Below are positions 11,258-39,543 of a DNA stretch of 48,926 nucleotides, in pieces. A program made the translations under genes and the position numbers. The stretch spans positions 39,975-88,900 of the forward strand of contig JAPPFB010000023.1 in NCBI GenBank assembly GCA_028875225.1, read 5' to 3'. Numbering within the stretch: position 1 is the first letter of the stretch; each line of letters starts with the position of its first letter. The notes under the pieces are model-generated. The model had not been told where the DNA came from. It was given only the letters and a program-made list of their open reading frames with translations, and searched no databases. The stretch is from Chloroflexota bacterium (GTDB lineage: Bacteria > Chloroflexota > Dehalococcoidia > Bin125).

Positions 11258-13216
11258 CTAGCTGTGACTGTTGTGCGAGTGATGCGCGTGACGGTCCTGT
11301 CCGTGCTCGGCGTCGGGCTCGCAGTGATCAGGTGGCGGTACGTCGAGGCCGGGATTGCGGTCGAAGAATCCCCACGGCTTCAGGCTGAAACTGGCCCGTT
11401 GGACCGGCATCACGGGCCAGTCTTCCGGACGCACGAGATGATTCATTCCCACGGTGTACCAGAGCACGACATCGGCCTGTTGCAGGGGACGCTTGGCATC
11501 GATCCATTCTGGTAGTCCCAGTCCGGGCTCGCTCTGCGCCGGATAGTCGCCAGCCGGATAGCGCTGCATGGGATCGTATGAGGTGACCCAGAGCTGCTTG
11601 CGCGCGAACGCAGCGCGCTGCGCAATCATCGACCGCTCGTCGGCCATCATCGAGACCGTCGCGCCCGGCATCAGGACGTAGGCCGGCGGCTCGCCGATCG
11701 GGTTGCTGACCCCGTCATTCGCGATCCGCCAATGTCTCGCCGCAGACGAGTTGACCTCTCGTCCGCTTGATGACTCGTCGGCAATAGGCGTCGCCAATGC
11801 AGTGAACGTGTTGTGGTAGGGATTCTCCGGTCCGAGCGGGAGCGGCACCGTGTCGATTTCGTAGACCGTGTTCTCGGGACCGTCGACCTCCATGTCCAGC
11901 CGAAAGCTGAGGAAGTGCTGGTGATGCACGCCAGCCAGCCGCGAACCGATCTTGTGCCTCGTGACCTGTGGATCATCGTCCTCGATCGCCATCGTCTGTA
12001 CGATCCCTGTCGCCTTCACCTCGTGCTCCCACGAGCCGTCCTGGTAGAAGTACCAGTAGAAGCCGTAGTCGTAGTTGTCGACGGTCGCGATCGTCGAGAT
12101 GACCAGACGCCGAGAACGCCGCAACCAGGATTGTGTGCCCCGCTGGTCGGGATGCCGATAGGTGTGCTTCCAAAGCAGCCCGGCGTCCTCCTCGTGAATG
12201 CAGATCGCGTTCTCGATGGTCCGGGCTCCACCGCGCTCATCCGTGACGACCCCGTCGAGATAGACAATCTCGCCGAGACAGTCGCAGCCCAGTTCCAACG
12301 AGTTGACCAGCCGCCCGATTCCGCACTCACCCGAATCGAACGCGTTCTTGAAGTAGTGTCCCACCGACGCGTCGCCGTAGGGCACGACCATCTCTGCCAG
12401 CGACGCGCGATAGCAGATGGGACGCAGCTGTCCGTTGTCCTCATAGCCAATCTGGTGCAGTACCAGGCCTTCGCGCGGATGCAGCGAGACCCGCATCTGC
12501 CATTTCTGCCAGCGCAGCAGATGGCCCTCGAGGCTGAATGACGTTCCTTCCGGCTGGACGATATCGAGCGGTCTCAGATCTTCGCGGTGCGGCCCGCCGT
12601 GATCGTGGTCGAAGCGCAGCGACGAGGTTGGCGGCAAAGGTGAGGGTTCGTCGATGACTTCCAGGACTCGGTCTTCCGCGAGATCGACGATCGCGATCAA
12701 TCCCTCGACCGGCCGTCCGTAGGCGTTGTCGTCCGGTTCATCCCGTAGGTAGACAATGCCCTTGAGGATGCGGTGTTCCGTCTCCCAGGTGGAGCCGAAG
12801 TTGCCGGTCGGCCAGAGGTGAATGAAGGACAGGTCGATCTGGTCGTCGCTGAGTCCGCGGCCGCGCATCGCCGAACGCCAACCCACATCGGTGCGGATTG
12901 TTGCTTCGGCTCGTTCGTACTCCTCGAACAGCGCCGGAGGCTGGACGCCAGGACGCTCGGTGACCGATGTGACCATGCCGGCATCGAGGTCCACGATGAC
13001 TTCGGTCGTCAGGCCCGCATCGATGTCAATGCAGACCGCCTCCGCGCAGCGCGGCGGATTCGCGGCGCCTTTCGGCGGCTCGAGCGCGGCGACCAGCAGG
13101 AAGCGCAAGGAATCGGGCGAGCCGAATCGCCCGCTGATGATCGTTGATGCGCGAACGATCTCGTCCGCCGACAGCGGGTCGAGCGGATGAGTCCGCGTTG
13201 CAGCTTCCGTGACCAC
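11258..13216 (-). CDS. Copper-containing primary-amine oxidase, copy 1
   Basis: This 652-residue topaquinone (TPQ) amine oxidase converts primary amines to aldehydes, ammonia and hydrogen peroxide. The TPQ precursor is Tyr382 in ATVDNYDYGFYW and the catalytic base is Asp294 in KNAFDSGE. Copper ligands include the HQH pair in GVHHQHFLSFRLDME and a later His near TVGMNHLVRPEDWPV. The start is GTG with AGGAG 5 bases upstream; this aligns exactly with the ATG of the neighbouring paralogue. No signal peptide is seen. The C-terminus is a His-rich tail after PDHC. It follows the second copy by 20 bases, clearly in one operon. Confidence 0.95.
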   Translation of the reverse strand: MVTEAATRTHPLDPLSADEIVRASTIISGRFGSPDSLRFLLVAALEPPKGAANPPRCAEAVCIDIDAGLTTEVIVDLDAGMVTSVTERPGVQPPALFEEYERAEATIRTDVGWRSAMRGRGLSDDQIDLSFIHLWPTGNFGSTWETEHRILKGIVYLRDEPDDNAYGRPVEGLIAIVDLAEDRVLEVIDEPSPLPPTSSLRFDHDHGGPHREDLRPLDIVQPEGTSFSLEGHLLRWQKWQMRVSLHPREGLVLHQIGYEDNGQLRPICYRASLAEMVVPYGDASVGHYFKNAFDSGECGIGRLVNSLELGCDCLGEIVYLDGVVTDERGGARTIENAICIHEEDAGLLWKHTYRHPDQRGTQSWLRRSRRLVISTIATVDNYDYGFYWYFYQDGSWEHEVKATGIVQTMAIEDDDPQVTRHKIGSRLAGVHHQHFLSFRLDMEVDGPENTVYEIDTVPLPLGPENPYHNTFTALATPIADESSSGREVNSSAARHWRIANDGVSNPIGEPPAYVLMPGATVSMMADERSMIAQRAAFARKQLWVTSYDPMQRYPAGDYPAQSEPGLGLPEWIDAKRPLQQADVVLWYTVGMNHLVRPEDWPVMPVQRASFSLKPWGFFDRNPGLDVPPPDHCEPDAEHGQDRHAHHSHNSHS

Positions 13217-34095: not shown

Positions 34096-34485
34096 ATGAT
34101 TCAGGTCACGGCGATGGACCACATCGTGCTCCGCGTCTCCGATGTCGAGCGCTCACTTGCCTGGTACACCTCCAGGCTTGGCCTCGAGCCGGTCCGCGAA
34201 GCGGAATGGCGCGCAGGTGATTGTCCGTTCCCCTCAGTCCGGATCTCCGCCGACACGATCATCGACCTCATCGACGGCGACGTCGATCACGACAGACGCA
34301 ACCTCGATCACTTCTGCATGGTCGTCAGCGCGGACAGCATGGACGAGATCCGCCGCTCCGGAGACTTCGATATCGTCCGAGACCCCGACTTCGACCTCTT
34401 CGGCGCGCGCGGCATGGCCGACGGCCTCTATATCCGCGATCCGGACGGCAACGAGATTGAGTTGCGAGCCTATCCCGGCGAATAG
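34096..34485 (+). CDS. VOC (glyoxalase/bleomycin-resistance/dioxygenase) family protein
   Basis: This 129-residue protein has the beta-alpha-beta-beta-beta layout of the vicinal oxygen chelate fold. Metal ligands likely include His9 (MDHIVLRVSDVERS), His in NLDHFCMVV and Glu in DPDGNEIELRAY. A glyoxalase, dioxygenase or thiol-dependent resistance role is possible; sequence alone does not separate them. It is followed by a RidA gene 51 bases downstream, both on the plus strand. Confidence 0.88.
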   Translation: MIQVTAMDHIVLRVSDVERSLAWYTSRLGLEPVREAEWRAGDCPFPSVRISADTIIDLIDGDVDHDRRNLDHFCMVVSADSMDEIRRSGDFDIVRDPDFDLFGARGMADGLYIRDPDGNEIELRAYPGE

Positions 34486-34536
34486 CCGATGCTGCGATAG
34501 CCTGAGATTCGATCTGCGAAGCGCTAGGAGCGTGCG

Positions 34537-34998
34537 ATGTCAGCACACAACGCCGACGCCAAAGCCCAGGAGATGGGGCTCGATCTCTCCACCAACCCGC
34601 CGCTGGCCAACTATGTGCCGGCGGTCCGCACGGGCAACCTCGTCTACCTGTCCGGACATGGACCCTTCCAGGACGGCGAGTTAATCCGCGGCAAACTCGG
34701 CGCCGACCTCGATGTCGACGCCGGCTACCAGGCCGCCCGCGCGGTCATGGTCCAACTGCTCGGCTCGCTCCGAGCCGAAATCGGCTCGCTCGACCGCGTT
34801 TCGCGGATCGTCAAGCTGCTCTGCATGGTCAACTGCACGCCCGACTTCGGTAACCATCCCGGCGTCGCCAACGGAGCCTCCGACCTCCTCGTCGAACTCT
34901 TCGGCGAAAGCGGCCGCCACGCCCGCTCCGCCGTCGGCATGCAATCTCTCCCCATGGGCATGTCCGTCGAGATCGAAATGATCGTCGAAATCGAGTAA
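34537..34998 (+). CDS. RidA family (YjgF/YER057c/UK114) protein
   Basis: This 153-residue protein is of the RidA family, which hydrolyses reactive enamine/imine intermediates formed by PLP enzymes. Motifs are NLVYLSGHGPFQDGELIRGKLG and the C-terminal GMSVEIEMIVEIE strand. The LLGSLRAEIGSLDRVSRIVKL helix is typical. It lies in a run of small plus-strand genes after the VOC gene. The two aminotransferases in the window could make the reactive intermediates, which is inference. The length is a little above the ~130 usual for RidA, with extra residues at the N-terminus. Confidence 0.88.
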   Translation: MSAHNADAKAQEMGLDLSTNPPLANYVPAVRTGNLVYLSGHGPFQDGELIRGKLGADLDVDAGYQAARAVMVQLLGSLRAEIGSLDRVSRIVKLLCMVNCTPDFGNHPGVANGASDLLVELFGESGRHARSAVGMQSLPMGMSVEIEMIVEIE

Positions 34999-35012
34999 CC
35001 AAGGAGTTCGTC

Positions 35013-35035
35013 ATACCCGCGCTTGCCGCGGGTAT
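35013..35035. repeat. REP-like palindrome (GTCATACCCGCG type)
   Basis: ATACCCGCG and CGCGGGTAT pair around CTTGC. The flank GTC before and CTCG after match the element at 36441-36463 (ATTCCCGCG/CGCGGGAAT) and, more loosely, that at 21507. It lies between RidA and LLM genes. Confidence 0.6.
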
Positions 35036-35079
35036 CTCGACGATTCGAGCACAGACCGACCACGCGAAAGGCACTCCCC

Positions 35080-36078
35080 ATGCGACTCGGCATCCTGGCC
35101 GGATTCGACGCCAACTGGCGAGACACCCTCGAGAAAGTCAAGATCGCCGAAGACCTCGGCTACGAAATGATCTCCACCGGCGAAGCCTGGGGACACTCCG
35201 TCCTCCCCTGGCTCACTGTGATCGCCGCCAACACCGAGAAGATGCAGATCGGCACCGGCATCCTCAACACCTTCTCCCGTTCGCCCGCCGCAATCGCCCA
35301 GGAGTTCGCCACGCTCGAGACGATCTCCGGCGGCCGCATGGTCTGCGGACTCGGATCGTCCGGCAACCTCGTCATCGAAGGCTTCCACGGCGTCGACTTC
35401 GACCGCCCGCTGCGCCGGATCCGCGAGTACACCGAGATCATCAAGATGCTGCTCAGCGGCCAGCGTCTCCAGTACGAAGGCGAGATCTACACGCTCCAGC
35501 GCGGATTCCGCCTGCTCGGCTACGAGCCCGTGCGCGAGGACATGCCCGTCTGGATCGCCGCCATTACGCCGCGTTCGATCCAGCAGACCGGCGAGATCGC
35601 CGACGGCATCTACCCCATCCACTGGCCCCGGCGGGGCTTTGAGCCGCTCAAGCGCCAGCTCGCCGGCGCCTCGCGCGACGCCAACCGGCCCGAGGACTCG
35701 GTCACCGTCGCCCCCTTCACCAACGTCTTTGTCACCGGCGAGGGCGACGACGAGCAGGTCTGGCGCAACGCCCGACAGCCGCTCTTCCACTACACCAACC
35801 GGATGGGCTCCTTCTACTGGCAGATGCTCTCCCGTTCCGGCTTCGAGTCCGAAATCAAGGACTCCCGCGCCGCCTGGGCCGACCGCGACTCGGAAGGCGC
35901 GCTGATGGCCTTCTCCGAGAGCATGGTCCGCGAGATCCAGGTGATCGGCCCCATCGAATCGGTCCCCGAGCAACTCCAGGCCCGCTCCGACGCCGGCGCC
36001 GACCTGCAGATGATCCCCTTGCCGTCCGGCGACACCATGGACGTCGGCCGCCGCCTCGAGCAATACCTCGGCAGCTAG
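35080..36078 (+). CDS. LLM class F420/flavin-dependent oxidoreductase (1)
   Basis: This 332-residue TIM-barrel protein belongs to the bacterial luciferase-like superfamily (often coenzyme F420-dependent). It begins RLGILAGFDANWRDTLEKVK, with the family's sheet-one motif and the KIAEDLGYEMISTGEAWG helix. Later LETISGGRMVCGLGSSGNLV matches the flavin/F420 phosphate site. The ATG at 35080 has AAAGG 9 bases upstream; the longer open frame upstream covers the palindrome and is not coding-like. Substrate unknown. Similar expanded families are typical of marine and soil Chloroflexota and Actinobacteria. Confidence 0.9.
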   Translation: MRLGILAGFDANWRDTLEKVKIAEDLGYEMISTGEAWGHSVLPWLTVIAANTEKMQIGTGILNTFSRSPAAIAQEFATLETISGGRMVCGLGSSGNLVIEGFHGVDFDRPLRRIREYTEIIKMLLSGQRLQYEGEIYTLQRGFRLLGYEPVREDMPVWIAAITPRSIQQTGEIADGIYPIHWPRRGFEPLKRQLAGASRDANRPEDSVTVAPFTNVFVTGEGDDEQVWRNARQPLFHYTNRMGSFYWQMLSRSGFESEIKDSRAAWADRDSEGALMAFSESMVREIQVIGPIESVPEQLQARSDAGADLQMIPLPSGDTMDVGRRLEQYLGS

Positions 36079-36151: not shown

Positions 36152-36403
36152 ATGTCCGACAAGCAGATCACCATCGAAGTCGTCTACTGCGCCGACTGCG
36201 GCTACTGGCCGCGCACATCCTGGATGCTCGGTGAGCTGATGACCGACATCCAGCACCTCGTCTCCGACGTCAAACTCATCCCCGACACCAGGGGCCTCTT
36301 TGAATGGTCCGTCAACGGAGACCTCGTCTTCAGCAAAGCCGCCATGGGCCGCTTCCCCGACATGGACGAACTCCGAGAACTCGTCTACGCCCACCTCGAC
36401 TGA
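36152..36403 (+). CDS. Rdx family (SelW/SelT-like) thioredoxin-fold protein, Cys form
   Basis: This 83-residue protein is of the Rdx/SelW family, with a thioredoxin-like fold. The redox motif is Cys13-Ala-Asp-Cys16 in VVYCADCGYWPR. In selenoprotein W the second position is selenocysteine; here it is a TGC Cys codon. The rest (LIPDTRGLFEWSVNGDLVFS, FPDMDELRELVYAHLD) matches the family. Probably a small thiol oxidoreductase. It lies under 2 kb from the UGSC selenoprotein gene. Confidence 0.88.
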   Translation: MSDKQITIEVVYCADCGYWPRTSWMLGELMTDIQHLVSDVKLIPDTRGLFEWSVNGDLVFSKAAMGRFPDMDELRELVYAHLD

Positions 36404-36440
36404 CCCCCCCAGATTCCGTCATTCCCGCCCCACCCCCGTC

Positions 36441-36463
36441 ATTCCCGCGCTCGCCGCGGGAAT
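36441..36463. repeat. REP-like palindrome (GTCATTCCCGCG type)
   Basis: ATTCCCGCG and CGCGGGAAT pair around CTCGC, with GTC before and CTCG after. It belongs to the same family as 35013-35035. A degenerate half-copy precedes it at 36418-36430. Confidence 0.6.
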
Positions 36464-36540
36464 CTCGCTCCGTCCGGCACGACCTTCGCCACCGGCACAC
36501 CACCTCCGATGCCCCGCACTCCTCTTCCCGACACCCCGCA

Positions 36541-37100
36541 CTCTCCTCCGATGCCCCGAACTTGATGCGGGGCCCAGACCTCCCAACCCCGCACACGAGT
36601 AGAAGCCCCTCTCGCCAAAGCCGCCGCCAGCGGATCCCCAATCCACAACCGAGCTCAGCTCCACCAACCCACCGCACTCAACGATCGAGCCCTGGCCCCC
36701 GCGTCAAGCGCGGGGGATCGGACAAATGGCATTTGAACCCGCACCTCCGTCTGCTGCCTCCCTTTCCGATGAACCCCTATTCCCTTCCAATGCCCCAAAC
36801 TCCCTTCCCGATGCCCCGCACTCTCCTCCGATGCCCCGAACTTGATGCGGGGCCCAGACCTCCCAACCCCGCACACGAGTAGAAGCCCCTCTCGCCAAAG
36901 CCGCCGCCAGCGGATCCCCAATCCACAACCGAGCTCAGCTCCACCAACCCACCGCACTCAACGATCGAGCCCTGGCCCCCGCGTCAAGCGCGGGGGATCG
37001 GACAAATGGCATTTGAACCCGCACCTCCTTCTGCTGCCTCCCCTTCCGATGAACCCCTATTCCCTTCCAATGCCCCAACCTCCCTTCCCGATGCCCCGCA
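36541..37100 (+). repeat. 280-bp tandem direct duplication
   Basis: Copy 1 (36541-36820) and copy 2 (36821-37100) match with only about three differences that I could find. Each copy contains a TGCCCCG-AACTTGATG-CGGGGC palindrome and a second palindrome CCCCCGCG-TCAAG-CGCGGGGG. Homology is weaker but detectable just upstream of copy 1. High identity points to a recent duplication or an assembly effect. Confidence 0.85.
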
Positions 37101-37141
37101 CTTGCCTGCCCCTGGCTTGAACAGGGGATGCGGGGCCCAGA
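37091..37141. repeat. Palindrome of TGCCCCGC type with nested hairpin
   Basis: GCCCCGCA (37093-37100) pairs with TGCGGGGC (37129-37136). Inside lies CCCCTG...CAGGGG. The same composite, in inverted orientation, lies at 48685-48734. It marks the end of the duplicated block. Confidence 0.6.
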
Positions 37142-37275
37142 CCTCCGCCCCCATCCACGACCACACCCTGATCCCCACCTCAACCTCCTCCGACAACCCC
37201 AACACATCCCCACCGCCCAACACAGAACAGATGTACCTACCATGAATCCCCTACTGCACCCGAAAGGCCACAACC

Positions 37276-37646
37276 ATGCACGCCGCCGCTCAGACCATCA
37301 AGCCCCCCGTCCCCTACACCGACGCCGCCATCAAAGCCGGCATCGCCCACGAAGCCGCCAACGGACCCTCCCACGTCCGCATCAAAGCGCTCGGCATGAT
37401 GGCCCGCATCACCGGCCTCTTCGAACAGGGCAAGCAGCTCGGCAAACAACTCGCTCGCGACGCGGCACAGGCCGTCCACCAGACCACCGACCAGACCTCT
37501 CTGACAAGCTCGCCGCCGGCTACCGGCGCGTCGCCGAGCTCATGAACGGCGCCGAGCCCACCGCCGAAGAACTCGCCTATTGCAAGACCGAACAGCCGCT
37601 CGACGACGAACCACACGAAACGGAGCCGGACGATGAACCTCCCTAA
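37276..37646 (+). pseudogene. Unknown small protein gene with a -1 frameshift
   Basis: The first part (37276 to about 37491) encodes a coding-like helical segment with KALGMMARITGLFEQGKQ. The second part (about 37491-37646) continues in another frame with DLSDKLAAGYRRVAELMNGA and an acidic C-terminus ending DDEPP. Both parts have the strong GC bias at third codon positions seen in real genes here. A one-base loss near 37491 would join them into a ~120-residue protein. It could be a true pseudogene or a sequencing error. No family is recognised. AAAGG lies 9 bases before the ATG. Its end overlaps the next ORF by 14 bases. Confidence 0.55.
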
Positions 37647-37953
37647 TCCCCAGGATGCCTCGGTGCGCGCCGCGCTCGCGACGCTGCACCCGCTGCGCGG
37701 TTTTTCCCCCACCGACCGCCAGCAAGAGCTCTATGACGCGCTCCTGAGCGCCCCCTGTCCGCCCGACGACGATGATTCCGGCGCTGACCGCATCAACCTG
37801 CCCACCGGCAAGAAGCGCGCCATCGCCGAACTCGTCATCGACGCCGCACAGAGAAACAAGCAAACCGGCTCAGCCTCCCAAATTGCGCGAGCGGATACCC
37901 TGTCGCCAGCTAAACGTCCTGAAACCGAGCACTGGAGACTCAACCATGGCTGA
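37633..37953 (+). CDS. Hypothetical protein, unrecognised
   Basis: This 106-residue open frame overlaps the end of the frameshifted gene by 14 bases and the start of the selenoprotein gene by 8 bases, which suggests an operon. Residues 5-75 look coding (LRGFSPTDRQQELYDALLSA, then LPTGKKRAIAELVIDAAQR). The last 25 residues look degenerate. No known domain is recognised. It may be an intact small gene or a remnant. Confidence 0.4.
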   Translation: MNLPNPQDASVRAALATLHPLRGFSPTDRQQELYDALLSAPCPPDDDDSGADRINLPTGKKRAIAELVIDAAQRNKQTGSASQIARADTLSPAKRPETEHWRLNHG

Positions 37954-38488
37954 AACCATCGAAGTCCTCAGCCCACTGGCCCACGTCGCTGTCCACGAGG
38001 CGACCGCCGCCCCCCGACCGCTCTCCCTCGACGGCCTCCGACCAGGCATCCTCGAGAACCGCAAGGCCAACGCTCGCCTGCTGATGGAGACCATGGTCGA
38101 GCGCCTCGGCGAACGTCACGACCTCGGCGACCTCGTTGTCGGCAGCAAACCCGTCGGCGGCCCGCCCTCCGACTCCACCATCGACGCCCTACGCAACGGC
38201 GCCGACTTCCTCCTGATCGGCAGCTGTGATTGAGGCAGCTGCACGACGTGGAGTGTCCACGCCTCGGTCCTCTTCGAAGACATGGGAATCCCCACCGTCA
38301 CGGTCGGCACCTCCGCCTTCACCGACCTGCTCCAGCTCGAAGCCGAGCAGCGCGGCCTGCCCGAGCTCGACCGCCTGATCGTCCCGCATCCGCTGGGCGG
38401 CCTGCGCCCCGAGCGCGTCCGCGCCCGCGTCGACGACGGCGTCCTCGACCGTCTCGAAGCGGCGTTGCTCGGCCAGGAGAACTCGTGA
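37946..38488 (+). CDS. UGSC-motif selenoprotein (in-frame TGA = Sec96)
   Basis: Reading through the TGA at 38231-38233 gives a 180-residue protein. The stretch GSCD-U-GSC-TTWSVH matches the UGSC family, named after its Sec/Thr/Cys-Gly-Ser-Cys motif. Coding continues smoothly to 38488 (GIPTVTVGTSAFTDLLQLEA, VPHPLGGLRPERVRARV). GGAG lies 8 bases before the ATG. The Sec-Gly-Ser-Cys pair and following GIPTV resemble the UxxC region of glycine reductase GrdB, which is my inference. Ordinary gene callers would split it in two at 38233. A hairpin right after the TGA could be its SECIS. It is coupled to the next gene by a GTGA overlap. Confidence 0.85.
38231..38267 (+). promoter_or_regulatory. Candidate bacterial SECIS element
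   Basis: Right after the Sec TGA, CGTGGA (38247-38252) pairs with TCCACG (38256-38261) around the loop GTG. An outer GAGG (38232-38235) pairs with CCTC (38262-38265). The loop starts with G about 20 bases after the TGA, inside the 16-37 base window known for bacterial SECIS elements bound by SelB. This supports Sec insertion, but the structure was drawn by eye, not folded. Confidence 0.6.
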
Positions 38489-39543
38489 CCGCAGCGAGCG
38501 GCCGGGCGGCCGACCGATTCAGCCTGCCGTCCGATCCCTTCGACTTCTCCCAGGAGTGCCAGCGCCGCGGCTGGTCCGACGGATTGCCGCTGATCCCGCC
38601 AACGCCTGAGCGGGTCGAAGCAATGCTGGAATCTTCGGGCCGCGATCCTCTGGAAGTGCTCGGCGTTCTGTCTCCGCGCCAGGGCGAGGCGACGGTCGAG
38701 GCCATCGCCATCAACGCAGTCATGGCCGGTTGCCGGCCGCAGCAGTTCCCGGTCGTCCTCGCAGCCGTCGAGGCGATCGCCCAGCCGCCCTTCAACCTCG
38801 ACGGCATCAACGCCACCACGCATCCCTGCGCCGTCTTCATCCTCGCCTCCGGTCCCGCTGCGCGAGCGGCCGGCATCCACGGCGGATCCGGCTGCTTCGG
38901 TCCGACCTTTCCCTCAAATGCGACGATCGGCCGCGCCGTCCGACTAGTCCAGCTCAACGTCGCCGGCGCGACCCCCGGCCGCGGCGACCGAGCCACCCAG
39001 GGCACGCCGGCCAAGTTCGCCTTCTGCGCCACCGAGCGCGAGGACGCCTCGCCCTGGCCGCCCTTCCAGACCACGCGCGGACTCAACGCCGAGGACAGCT
39101 GCGTCACGACCTGGGCCTGCGAGGGCCCGCACAACATCCAGGATCACGGCAGCAACACCGCCGCCGGCATCCTCCAGACCGTCGCCGGCGCGATGGGTCA
39201 GGCCGGCTCCAACAACATCCTGGGCAAAGGCGAGCCCGTCCTCGCCTTCGGACCCGAGCACGCCGAAACGGTCGCCGCCGAAGGCTGGACCCGCGAGTCG
39301 GTGCAGGAGTACCTCTGGGAGCATGCCCGCTACCCGGCGAGCAAGCTAAGCGAGGAATTCCTCGAGTCGGTCAACATCCGCATGGCCGGCGGAGTGCTCG
39401 ATCCGCACGACCCCGACGAGTGGCTGCCGATCACGGACAAGCCCGATGAAATCCACATCATCGTCGCCGGAGGCCCCGGCAAGCACTCCTGCTGGATGCC
39501 CACCTTCGGCGGCATGACCCGACCGGTGACGGTACCGCTCTGA
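38485..39543 (+). CDS. Conserved partner of UGSC protein, function unknown
   Basis: This 352-residue protein starts with GTG overlapping the selenoprotein stop (GTGA), with AGGAG 5 bases upstream. The much longer open frame upstream is the shadow of the selenoprotein gene. Conserved-looking segments are INAVMAGCRPQQFPVVLAAV, HGGSGCFGPTFPSNATIGRA and SCVTTWACEGPHNIQDHGSN. It has eight Cys (25, 83, 115, 137, 181, 206, 212, 336). I have seen similar unnamed proteins beside UGSC proteins, but give no function. Tight coupling suggests the two act together, perhaps in a thiol/selenol reaction. Confidence 0.75.
   Translation: MTAASGRAADRFSLPSDPFDFSQECQRRGWSDGLPLIPPTPERVEAMLESSGRDPLEVLGVLSPRQGEATVEAIAINAVMAGCRPQQFPVVLAAVEAIAQPPFNLDGINATTHPCAVFILASGPAARAAGIHGGSGCFGPTFPSNATIGRAVRLVQLNVAGATPGRGDRATQGTPAKFAFCATEREDASPWPPFQTTRGLNAEDSCVTTWACEGPHNIQDHGSNTAAGILQTVAGAMGQAGSNNILGKGEPVLAFGPEHAETVAAEGWTRESVQEYLWEHARYPASKLSEEFLESVNIRMAGGVLDPHDPDEWLPITDKPDEIHIIVAGGPGKHSCWMPTFGGMTRPVTVPL

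Follow-up and report, generated by a model that had tools for sequence, protein, structure and literature searches.

UGSC-family selenoproteins have been in print since 2008; according to the sections of PMC2398784 at hand, they were counted with the selenoprotein families of highest abundance in the GOS samples (255 Sec forms), a likely thioredoxin-like fold was stated for them, and a fusion of UGSC with a domain named Unknown_1 was reported. In the part of a 2026 review consulted here (PMC13188914), the functions of such selenoproteins are still described as largely uncharacterised. The other system to be compared is selenoprotein B of glycine reductase and of D-proline reductase (GrdB and PrdB, respectively), two enzymes that consume dithiol, as stated in the consulted portion of PMC10298544. 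The gene described here is an additional member of the UGSC family, and what is added to the earlier work is the association of the family with a partner protein, the fusions of the two, and a probable ancestry of the Sec domain in common with GrdB/PrdB.

The window, i.e., the whole stretch of DNA that was analysed, comprises 48,926 nucleotides (bases 39975-88900 of contig C26) of a Chloroflexota genome, G000, which is 3.22 Mb in size and 96% complete; the features of the locus are collected in Table 1. A preliminary description of the window had joined the open segments 37946-38233 and 38234-38488 into one frame split by one TGA, had placed the product in the UGSC family, and had noted a GTGA overlap with the downstream gene. 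Translation agreed with the joining, the TGA being the sole internal stop of the frame; the residues around it read ...FLLIGSCD-TGA-GSCTTWSVHASVLFE..., with the motif context SCD-TGA-GSCTTWSVH. The family placement was also sustained, as the read-through protein, searched against the family as had been advised, matched Pfam PF24696 (UGSC) with 140.5 bits, against a cut-off of 25, over profile positions 1-162 of 172; it passed in Pfam and fell below the cut-off of NF041046, the UGSC equivalog of NCBIfam (105.8 vs 125). The UGSC gene itself terminates in a TGA (38486-38488), and the overlap was indeed found, the GTG of the next gene at 38485 sharing four bases (GTGA) with it. Four UGSC copies were found in genome G000, with one TGA inside each. 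Elsewhere in the window (12320-12416, minus strand), a tRNA-Arg was called by ARAGORN that the Rfam gathering-threshold scan did not list.

Table 1. Positions of the UGSC locus features within the window.
Feature	Position	Strand	Remarks
VOC-like protein	34096-34485	+	named by eye
RidA-type protein	34537-34998	+	Pfam match
Luciferase-like oxidoreductase	35023-36078	+	Pfam match
SelW/Rdx-like gene with CxxC	36152..36403	+	PF10262, 65 bits; candidate electron donor; upstream in 12/13 related loci
UGSC-family selenoprotein gene	37946..38488	+	180 aa with predicted Sec96; PF24696 match; AlphaFold2 pLDDT 87.7
In-frame TGA, predicted Sec codon	38231..38233	+	in 13/13 relatives; replaced by Cys or another residue where TGA is absent; 13 TGA-containing single-frame fusions
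Predicted bacterial SECIS hairpin	38247..38261	+	stem 38247-38252 with 38256-38261; apical loop GUG 38253-38255
Partner gene	38485..39543	+	352 aa; 4-base GTGA overlap with UGSC; beside or fused to UGSC in 60/67

Conservation of the TGA was examined in relatives, in the phylum and on plasmids. It was found at codon 96 in all 13 relatives of the window gene, with a DNA identity of 66-91%; 12 of the 13 named relatives are metagenome assemblies labelled Chloroflexota, Chloroflexi or Dehalococcoidia. A survey of 400 genomes of the phylum returned at least 88 UGSC matches in at least 41 genomes, these counts being lower bounds, and part of the 88 matches were retrieved as loci. Exactly one internal TGA was present in 83 of the 88 matches listed and none in five, two of which are fragments in which the Pfam match does not span the Sec site; in fragment L071, the Sec site is unreadable. 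An alignment (A1) was built of 42 of the 71 distinct UGSC domains, in which Sec or Cys occupied the site in 40 of 42 proteins and Cys99 was kept in 39, another residue standing in its place in the other three, two of which have Thr or Met for Sec. The three TGA-less Chloroflexota copies in A1 carry Cys (L068), Thr (L069:6391) and Met (L070). Among ten plasmid loci from other organisms, Cys stood at the site in seven (Natrinema zhouii, Halalkalicoccus, Roseovarius, Arthrobacter, Embleya and two of Variovorax), TGA in two (Acidovorax p2-T1 and Paracoccus pBEN) and Met in one, a divergent fusion of Sporomusa.

These residues bear on several expectations of the preliminary description. Homologues with Cys aligned to the TGA, for which it had recommended a search, do exist, both on seven of the ten plasmids and in L068. 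It had named Sec, Thr or Cys as the occupants of the site, and all three were found in the family; Met, which also occurs, had not been foreseen. It had also warned that standard annotation would truncate such a protein, and the annotated CDS on Acidovorax plasmid p2-T1 in fact stops exactly at the TGA. The two TGA-bearing plasmid genes (L146 7857-8402 of Acidovorax sp. T1 plasmid p2-T1, and L145 7776-8441 of Paracoccus versutus plasmid pBEN) belong to Pseudomonadota, and in both the TGA is followed by nearly the same hairpin sequence.

The hairpin downstream of the TGA has a 6-bp stem and starts 13 nt after the UGA, with a spacing of 19 nt from the TGA to the GUG loop, in agreement with the bacterial SECIS rules as quoted in the consulted part of PMC13188914; its minimum free energy was -13.5 to -15.4. 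In the window gene and its relatives (14 genes), 72 codons were both degenerate and invariant in the encoded amino acid, and the seven of these that never vary in codon were +3, +4, +5, +7, +8, +9 and +10 after the TGA (hypergeometric P 7e-10); the stretch from +3 to +10 was chosen after inspection, yet it sits where a bacterial SECIS must be. The mean synonymous difference was 0.15 over codons +1 to +13 versus 0.45 over all codons. On the scale of the family, 60 of 66 TGA regions were aligned without gaps, leaving out five near orthologues of the window gene and one near relative of L075, and the 57 distinct rows were counted. In the hairpin of columns 14-22 with 26-34, 75.8% of the cells were paired, changes on both sides occurred in 58 cells versus 21.7 expected, and the covariation score was 0.348; none of 500 shuffles matched the paired fraction, the both-side changes or the covariation score, and all three fell when the pairing strand was slid by 1 to 3 columns. 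Two other measures were not discriminating: the number of pairs with a double change (8) was also attained in 98 of the 500 shuffles and in three of the slides, and the pair types in one slide outnumbered those of the hairpin by one. The outer pairs 14-34, 15-33 and 16-32 were broken in 23 to 36 of the 57 sequences, and the conserved part is therefore made up of the inner six pairs. The clearest covariation was seen in pair 21-27 (30 CG, 22 GC), in which a change of codon +6 (TGG to TGC among others) is accompanied by a third-base change, mostly synonymous, in the Val codon +8. As regards energy, the window hairpin was unremarkable in comparison with shuffles (z of -0.37 and -0.20); z was below -1 in 30 of the 66 regions against codon-shuffled controls, with a mean of -0.87, and the computed minimum pairs otherwise for the window at 40 nt and for five of the 13 relatives at 48 nt. 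Judging from these sequence comparisons, in which covariation was informative and energy was not, the hairpin after the TGA is the predicted bacterial SECIS of the gene.

The machinery for Sec decoding (selA, selB, selD and tRNA-Sec), which was to be looked for in the same genome, is present there in full: selB lies on the window's own contig, selA and selD are also found in G000, and the tRNA-Sec scored 68.2 bits and was called SeC, with anticodon TCA, by ARAGORN. The selD gene of this genome (C23:272746-273687, L019) has its own in-frame TGA in CGG-TGA-GSK, which we take to be the active-site position, and the selenophosphate synthetase of G000 is thus probably a selenoprotein itself. By reading of the listed rows, strong selA was found in 38 of the 41 UGSC genomes of the phylum, the exceptions being G344, G217 and G329; this co-occurrence is weak evidence, because selA scores above the cut-off in 321 of the 400 genomes anyway. 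In G329, tRNA-Sec is present and selA is not strong. In G344 (98% complete) and G217 (86% complete), neither selA over the cut-off nor tRNA-Sec was found, the best tRNA-Sec matches being tRNA-Ser; this may reflect loss in assembly, faulty binning, or Sec having been lost recently. The TGA-bearing UGSC genes of the two genomes are located at C35:28845-29375 (L052) and C447:6189-6692 (L038), respectively.

The protein encoded by the overlapping downstream gene, here called the partner, gave no convincing sequence match in Pfam, NCBIfam or PDB, and no match in a search of viral contigs. Its association with UGSC was tallied for 67 of the 71 UGSC domains, namely those longer than 120 aa. The partner was located on the same strand within 350 bp of UGSC, or fused to it, in 60 of them, and farther away in three; a same-strand partner was absent from the retrieved stretch in four, of which two are near the edge of the locus, and one of the latter, L036, has an opposite-strand partner 190 bp away. 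Plasmids of haloarchaea, Actinomycetota and Pseudomonadota likewise carry UGSC and partner together. In plasmid 2 of Halalkalicoccus jeotgali (L143 6849-9584), a Cys-form UGSC gene is flanked on both sides by copies of the partner.

Moreover, 15 distinct proteins contain UGSC and the partner in one open frame, a count that remains of 18 rows once two duplicates are removed together with L043, where a TGA separates the domains. In 13 of the 15, no TGA lies between the domain ends other than the one at the UGSC motif, and if it is decoded, the partner follows in the same frame; translation from an internal start downstream of it is also possible in these 13. Of the remaining two, one has Thr at the site (L069:6391) and the other Met (L070). 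UGSC-partner fusions with Met at the site, from which the second Cys of the motif is absent, were seen in L070 460-933 (genome G177) and L151 7266-9020 (Sporomusa termitida plasmid pSPTER), and these may possibly represent a branch with a different function. Going by gene order and fusion, UGSC and its 352-residue partner very probably form one unit, which is encoded by an overlapping pair here and by a single chain in other genomes, and the Unknown_1 domain of PMC2398784 is presumably the partner family. An alignment of 31 partner proteins (A2) contained no invariant Cys, which suggests a binding or activating role for the partner rather than a redox role. The structure model of the partner was poor (pLDDT 45.7), too low for use, and profile comparison of the partner with UGSC, and of the partner with GrdB/PrdB, produced no match.

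A resemblance of UGSC to GrdB had been presumed ahead of the profile comparison. Matches of single proteins to the models were weak; among 42 UGSC proteins, 19 matched TIGR01917 (GrdB; best 2.1e-4), 13 NF040794 (GrdF; 1e-4), seven TIGR04483 (PrdB; 8.1e-4) and three NF040795 (GrdH; 5.6e-5), and the window protein alone matched no GrdB/PrdB model. In the reverse search, two of seven GrdB/PrdB-like proteins matched NF041046, at 1.6e-5 and 0.0041. When the profile of the 42 UGSC proteins was compared with that of 21 GrdB/PrdB-type Sec domains (A3, taken from 31 candidates), the match was 95.9% (E 6e-9) and spanned 63 columns, in which the Sec positions of the two coincided. Masking of the four motif columns left a score of 47.0; the highest score among 100 column permutations was 19.3, and the reversed profile scored 21.1. 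A Pfam scan of the UGSC proteins returned no GRDB match, probably because PF07355 matches stop one residue before Sec. The pyruvoyl subunit GrdE/PrdA (PF09338) had no match in genome G000 and was found in eight of eight genomes chosen for a GrdB-like gene; the partner is not similar to GrdE/PrdA. Five more genes of G000 are GrdB/PrdB-like, with an in-frame TGA at U-P-x-C, namely L108 (C29:373-765), L109, L110, L111 (C27) and L112 (C17); their PF07355 matches break off immediately ahead of Sec, so that the hits look like short ORFs. Overall, we consider it probable that UGSC and GrdB/PrdB inherited their Sec-containing halves from a common ancestor, and that Sec96, at the start of a helix, is the nucleophile. 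In those portions of the literature that were searched, there was no prior statement of a link between UGSC and GrdB/PrdB.

The AlphaFold2 model of UGSC, computed with 14 sequences, had a pTM of 0.84 and showed five strands alternating with helices, with Sec96 at the start of helix 97-112. Its best matches among solved structures were CheY-like receiver and small-GTPase-type domains, tied within 1 Z, the top match being 4mld (Z 9.8, rmsd 3.1, 123 aligned). Thioredoxins were absent among the best 50 matches listed in each of two structural searches, which does not prove that they would not match, and a PDB sequence search with the UGSC protein gave no credible match. The predicted model and its structural matches do not favour the thioredoxin-like fold proposed in 2008.

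The gene neighbourhood was then inspected for thiol donors and for likely substrates. The SelW/Rdx-like gene, the position of which is conserved as listed in Table 1, lies 14-27 bp from UGSC in five of the related loci; in the window, the two are parted by about 1.5 kb (36404-37945) in which ORF translations are repeated. The order of the VOC-like, RidA-type and luciferase-like genes (34096..36078) is conserved in ten of the 13 related loci, and a further locus, L059, is cut by its contig. Genes similar to trxB were found next to or near UGSC or the partner in L149 (the source of the query), L147, L150, L089, L079 and L077 (E of 1.2e-40 or lower), with weaker or more distant matches in L145 and L148, and trxA-like matches in L083 and L098, besides L149. 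The enrichment of trxB was not significant, with seven matches (the query's own aside) in 76 UGSC loci versus none in a small control of 55 loci (187 kb). A redoxin-like domain is fused in front of the partner in eight proteins, with no TGA between the two; three of these were subjected to Pfam, of which one scored above the cut-off (AhpC-TSA, 3e-11), one just below, and one had no match. Other neighbours include CoA transferase, CoA lyase, RraA, RidA, amidohydrolase and luciferase-like oxidoreductases, along with transporters of the organic-acid, TRAP or tricarboxylate types. These neighbours point weakly to a small organic acid, or to a substrate derived from an amine or imine.

Considering all of the above, it is virtually certain, in our judgement, that the TGA at 38231 is the Sec codon of a UGSC-family protein; its decoding by SelB and tRNA-Sec, aided by the hairpin, is deduced from the presence of the machinery. 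Were it a true stop, or an error of sequencing or assembly, the product would be a truncated protein or the gene a pseudogene, and it is to be noted that the UGSC gene also ends in TGA and that two genomes have a TGA-bearing UGSC gene and neither selA over the cut-off nor a tRNA-Sec that could be found. However, the same codon recurs in 13 of 13 relatives, TGA is present in 83 of the 88 phylum matches listed, a conserved partner lies behind the TGA in 13 single-frame fusions (an internal start there being possible), and the SECIS region is both invariant and covarying, all of which makes a stop or an error exceedingly improbable. A pseudogene, a sequencing error and recoding of TGA throughout the genome were rejected, as the UGSC gene uses TGA as its own stop and relatives, fusions and hairpin all keep the read-through.

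As to function, the best overall explanation, to which we assign a probability of about 0.57, is a thiol-driven, two-protein selenol reductase that would resemble glycine/proline reductase without the pyruvoyl subunit. Sec96 would attack a substrate held by the partner, which would supply the substrate site, or at the partner interface; the resulting C-Se or selenenyl-sulfide intermediate would be resolved by Cys99 of the UGSC motif, and the enzyme would be reset by a thiol protein of the thioredoxin fold, here perhaps the SelW-like neighbour. The chances of this sequence of attack at the partner, resolution by Cys99 and thioredoxin-fold reset are put at even, and both estimates were lowered to these values because some members lack Cys99, and some of these have Thr or Met at the site. 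Such members cannot use the proposed selenol/thiol chemistry, and the UGSC family may therefore have more than one function. They would likewise be accommodated if UGSC and partner were not a reductase at all and instead a transferase, lyase or hydrolase of a CoA ester or dicarboxylate, with the thioredoxin-type proteins only protecting or resetting the selenol; the genes for CoA transferase, CoA lyase, RraA, amidohydrolase and organic-acid transporters that recur nearby also agree with such an enzyme. Nonetheless, we hold this to be rather unlikely, given that 39 of the 42 aligned proteins have retained Cys99 and 40 have either Sec or Cys at the site, and that glycine and D-proline reductase, the enzymes carrying a related Sec domain that have been characterised, use dithiol, according to the consulted portion of PMC10298544. 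Of still lower probability is a thioredoxin-like general redox protein, as suggested for UGSC in PMC2398784, with the partner as an accessory domain; the UxxC motif, the thioredoxin-type neighbours and the likely thioredoxin-like fold stated in the sections of that paper at hand are in its favour, whereas the UGSC model (pLDDT 87.7) best matches receiver and small-GTPase-type domains, and the profile match is to GrdB/PrdB.

Extending the reading of UGSC and partner as a two-protein selenol reductase, we tentatively suggest, at somewhat less than even odds, that they constitute a widespread new two-component class, in which a pared-down GrdB/PrdB Sec domain would be combined with an unrelated substrate-binding protein in place of the pyruvoyl subunit and with varied donors of the thioredoxin fold, would serve the catabolism of organic acids or amines in bacteria and archaea, and would use Sec or Cys depending on the host. 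Chemistry of the glycine/proline reductase type is known from strict anaerobes, and if the suggestion is true, it would extend beyond them to other hosts. The partner family, the likely GrdB/PrdB ancestry and the Cys forms in isolates (Arthrobacter, Roseovarius and haloarchaea) make the orphan UGSC family experimentally tractable.

In comparison with known systems, the locus is closest to the UGSC family (PF24696, PMC2398784), with which it has in common a profile match over nearly the whole domain, the D-U-G-S-C motif, Sec or Cys at the site and the predicted bacterial SECIS, as well as, going by the sections of PMC2398784 at hand, the fusion to a second domain, there called Unknown_1. The window gene differs from the family in that it scores below the NF041046 cut-off, has an overlapping two-gene layout, and is preceded by a SelW-like gene. 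Proteins of the SelW/Rdx, thioredoxin and AhpC/TSA types are neighbours or fused donor candidates, in which no homology to UGSC was seen. In contrast to GrdB/PrdB (selenoprotein B of glycine and D-proline reductase; PF07355, TIGR01917/01918/04483), UGSC is without the N-terminal GRDB region, scores far below the family cut-offs, and has a partner unrelated to GrdE/PrdA; because of the missing GRDB region, and because PF09338 has no match in the genome, UGSC is not filed under that family. What UGSC and GrdB/PrdB do have in common is a probably homologous Sec segment, consisting of a hydrophobic strand, U-x-x-C at the start of a helix, and an E..G(I/L)P strand.
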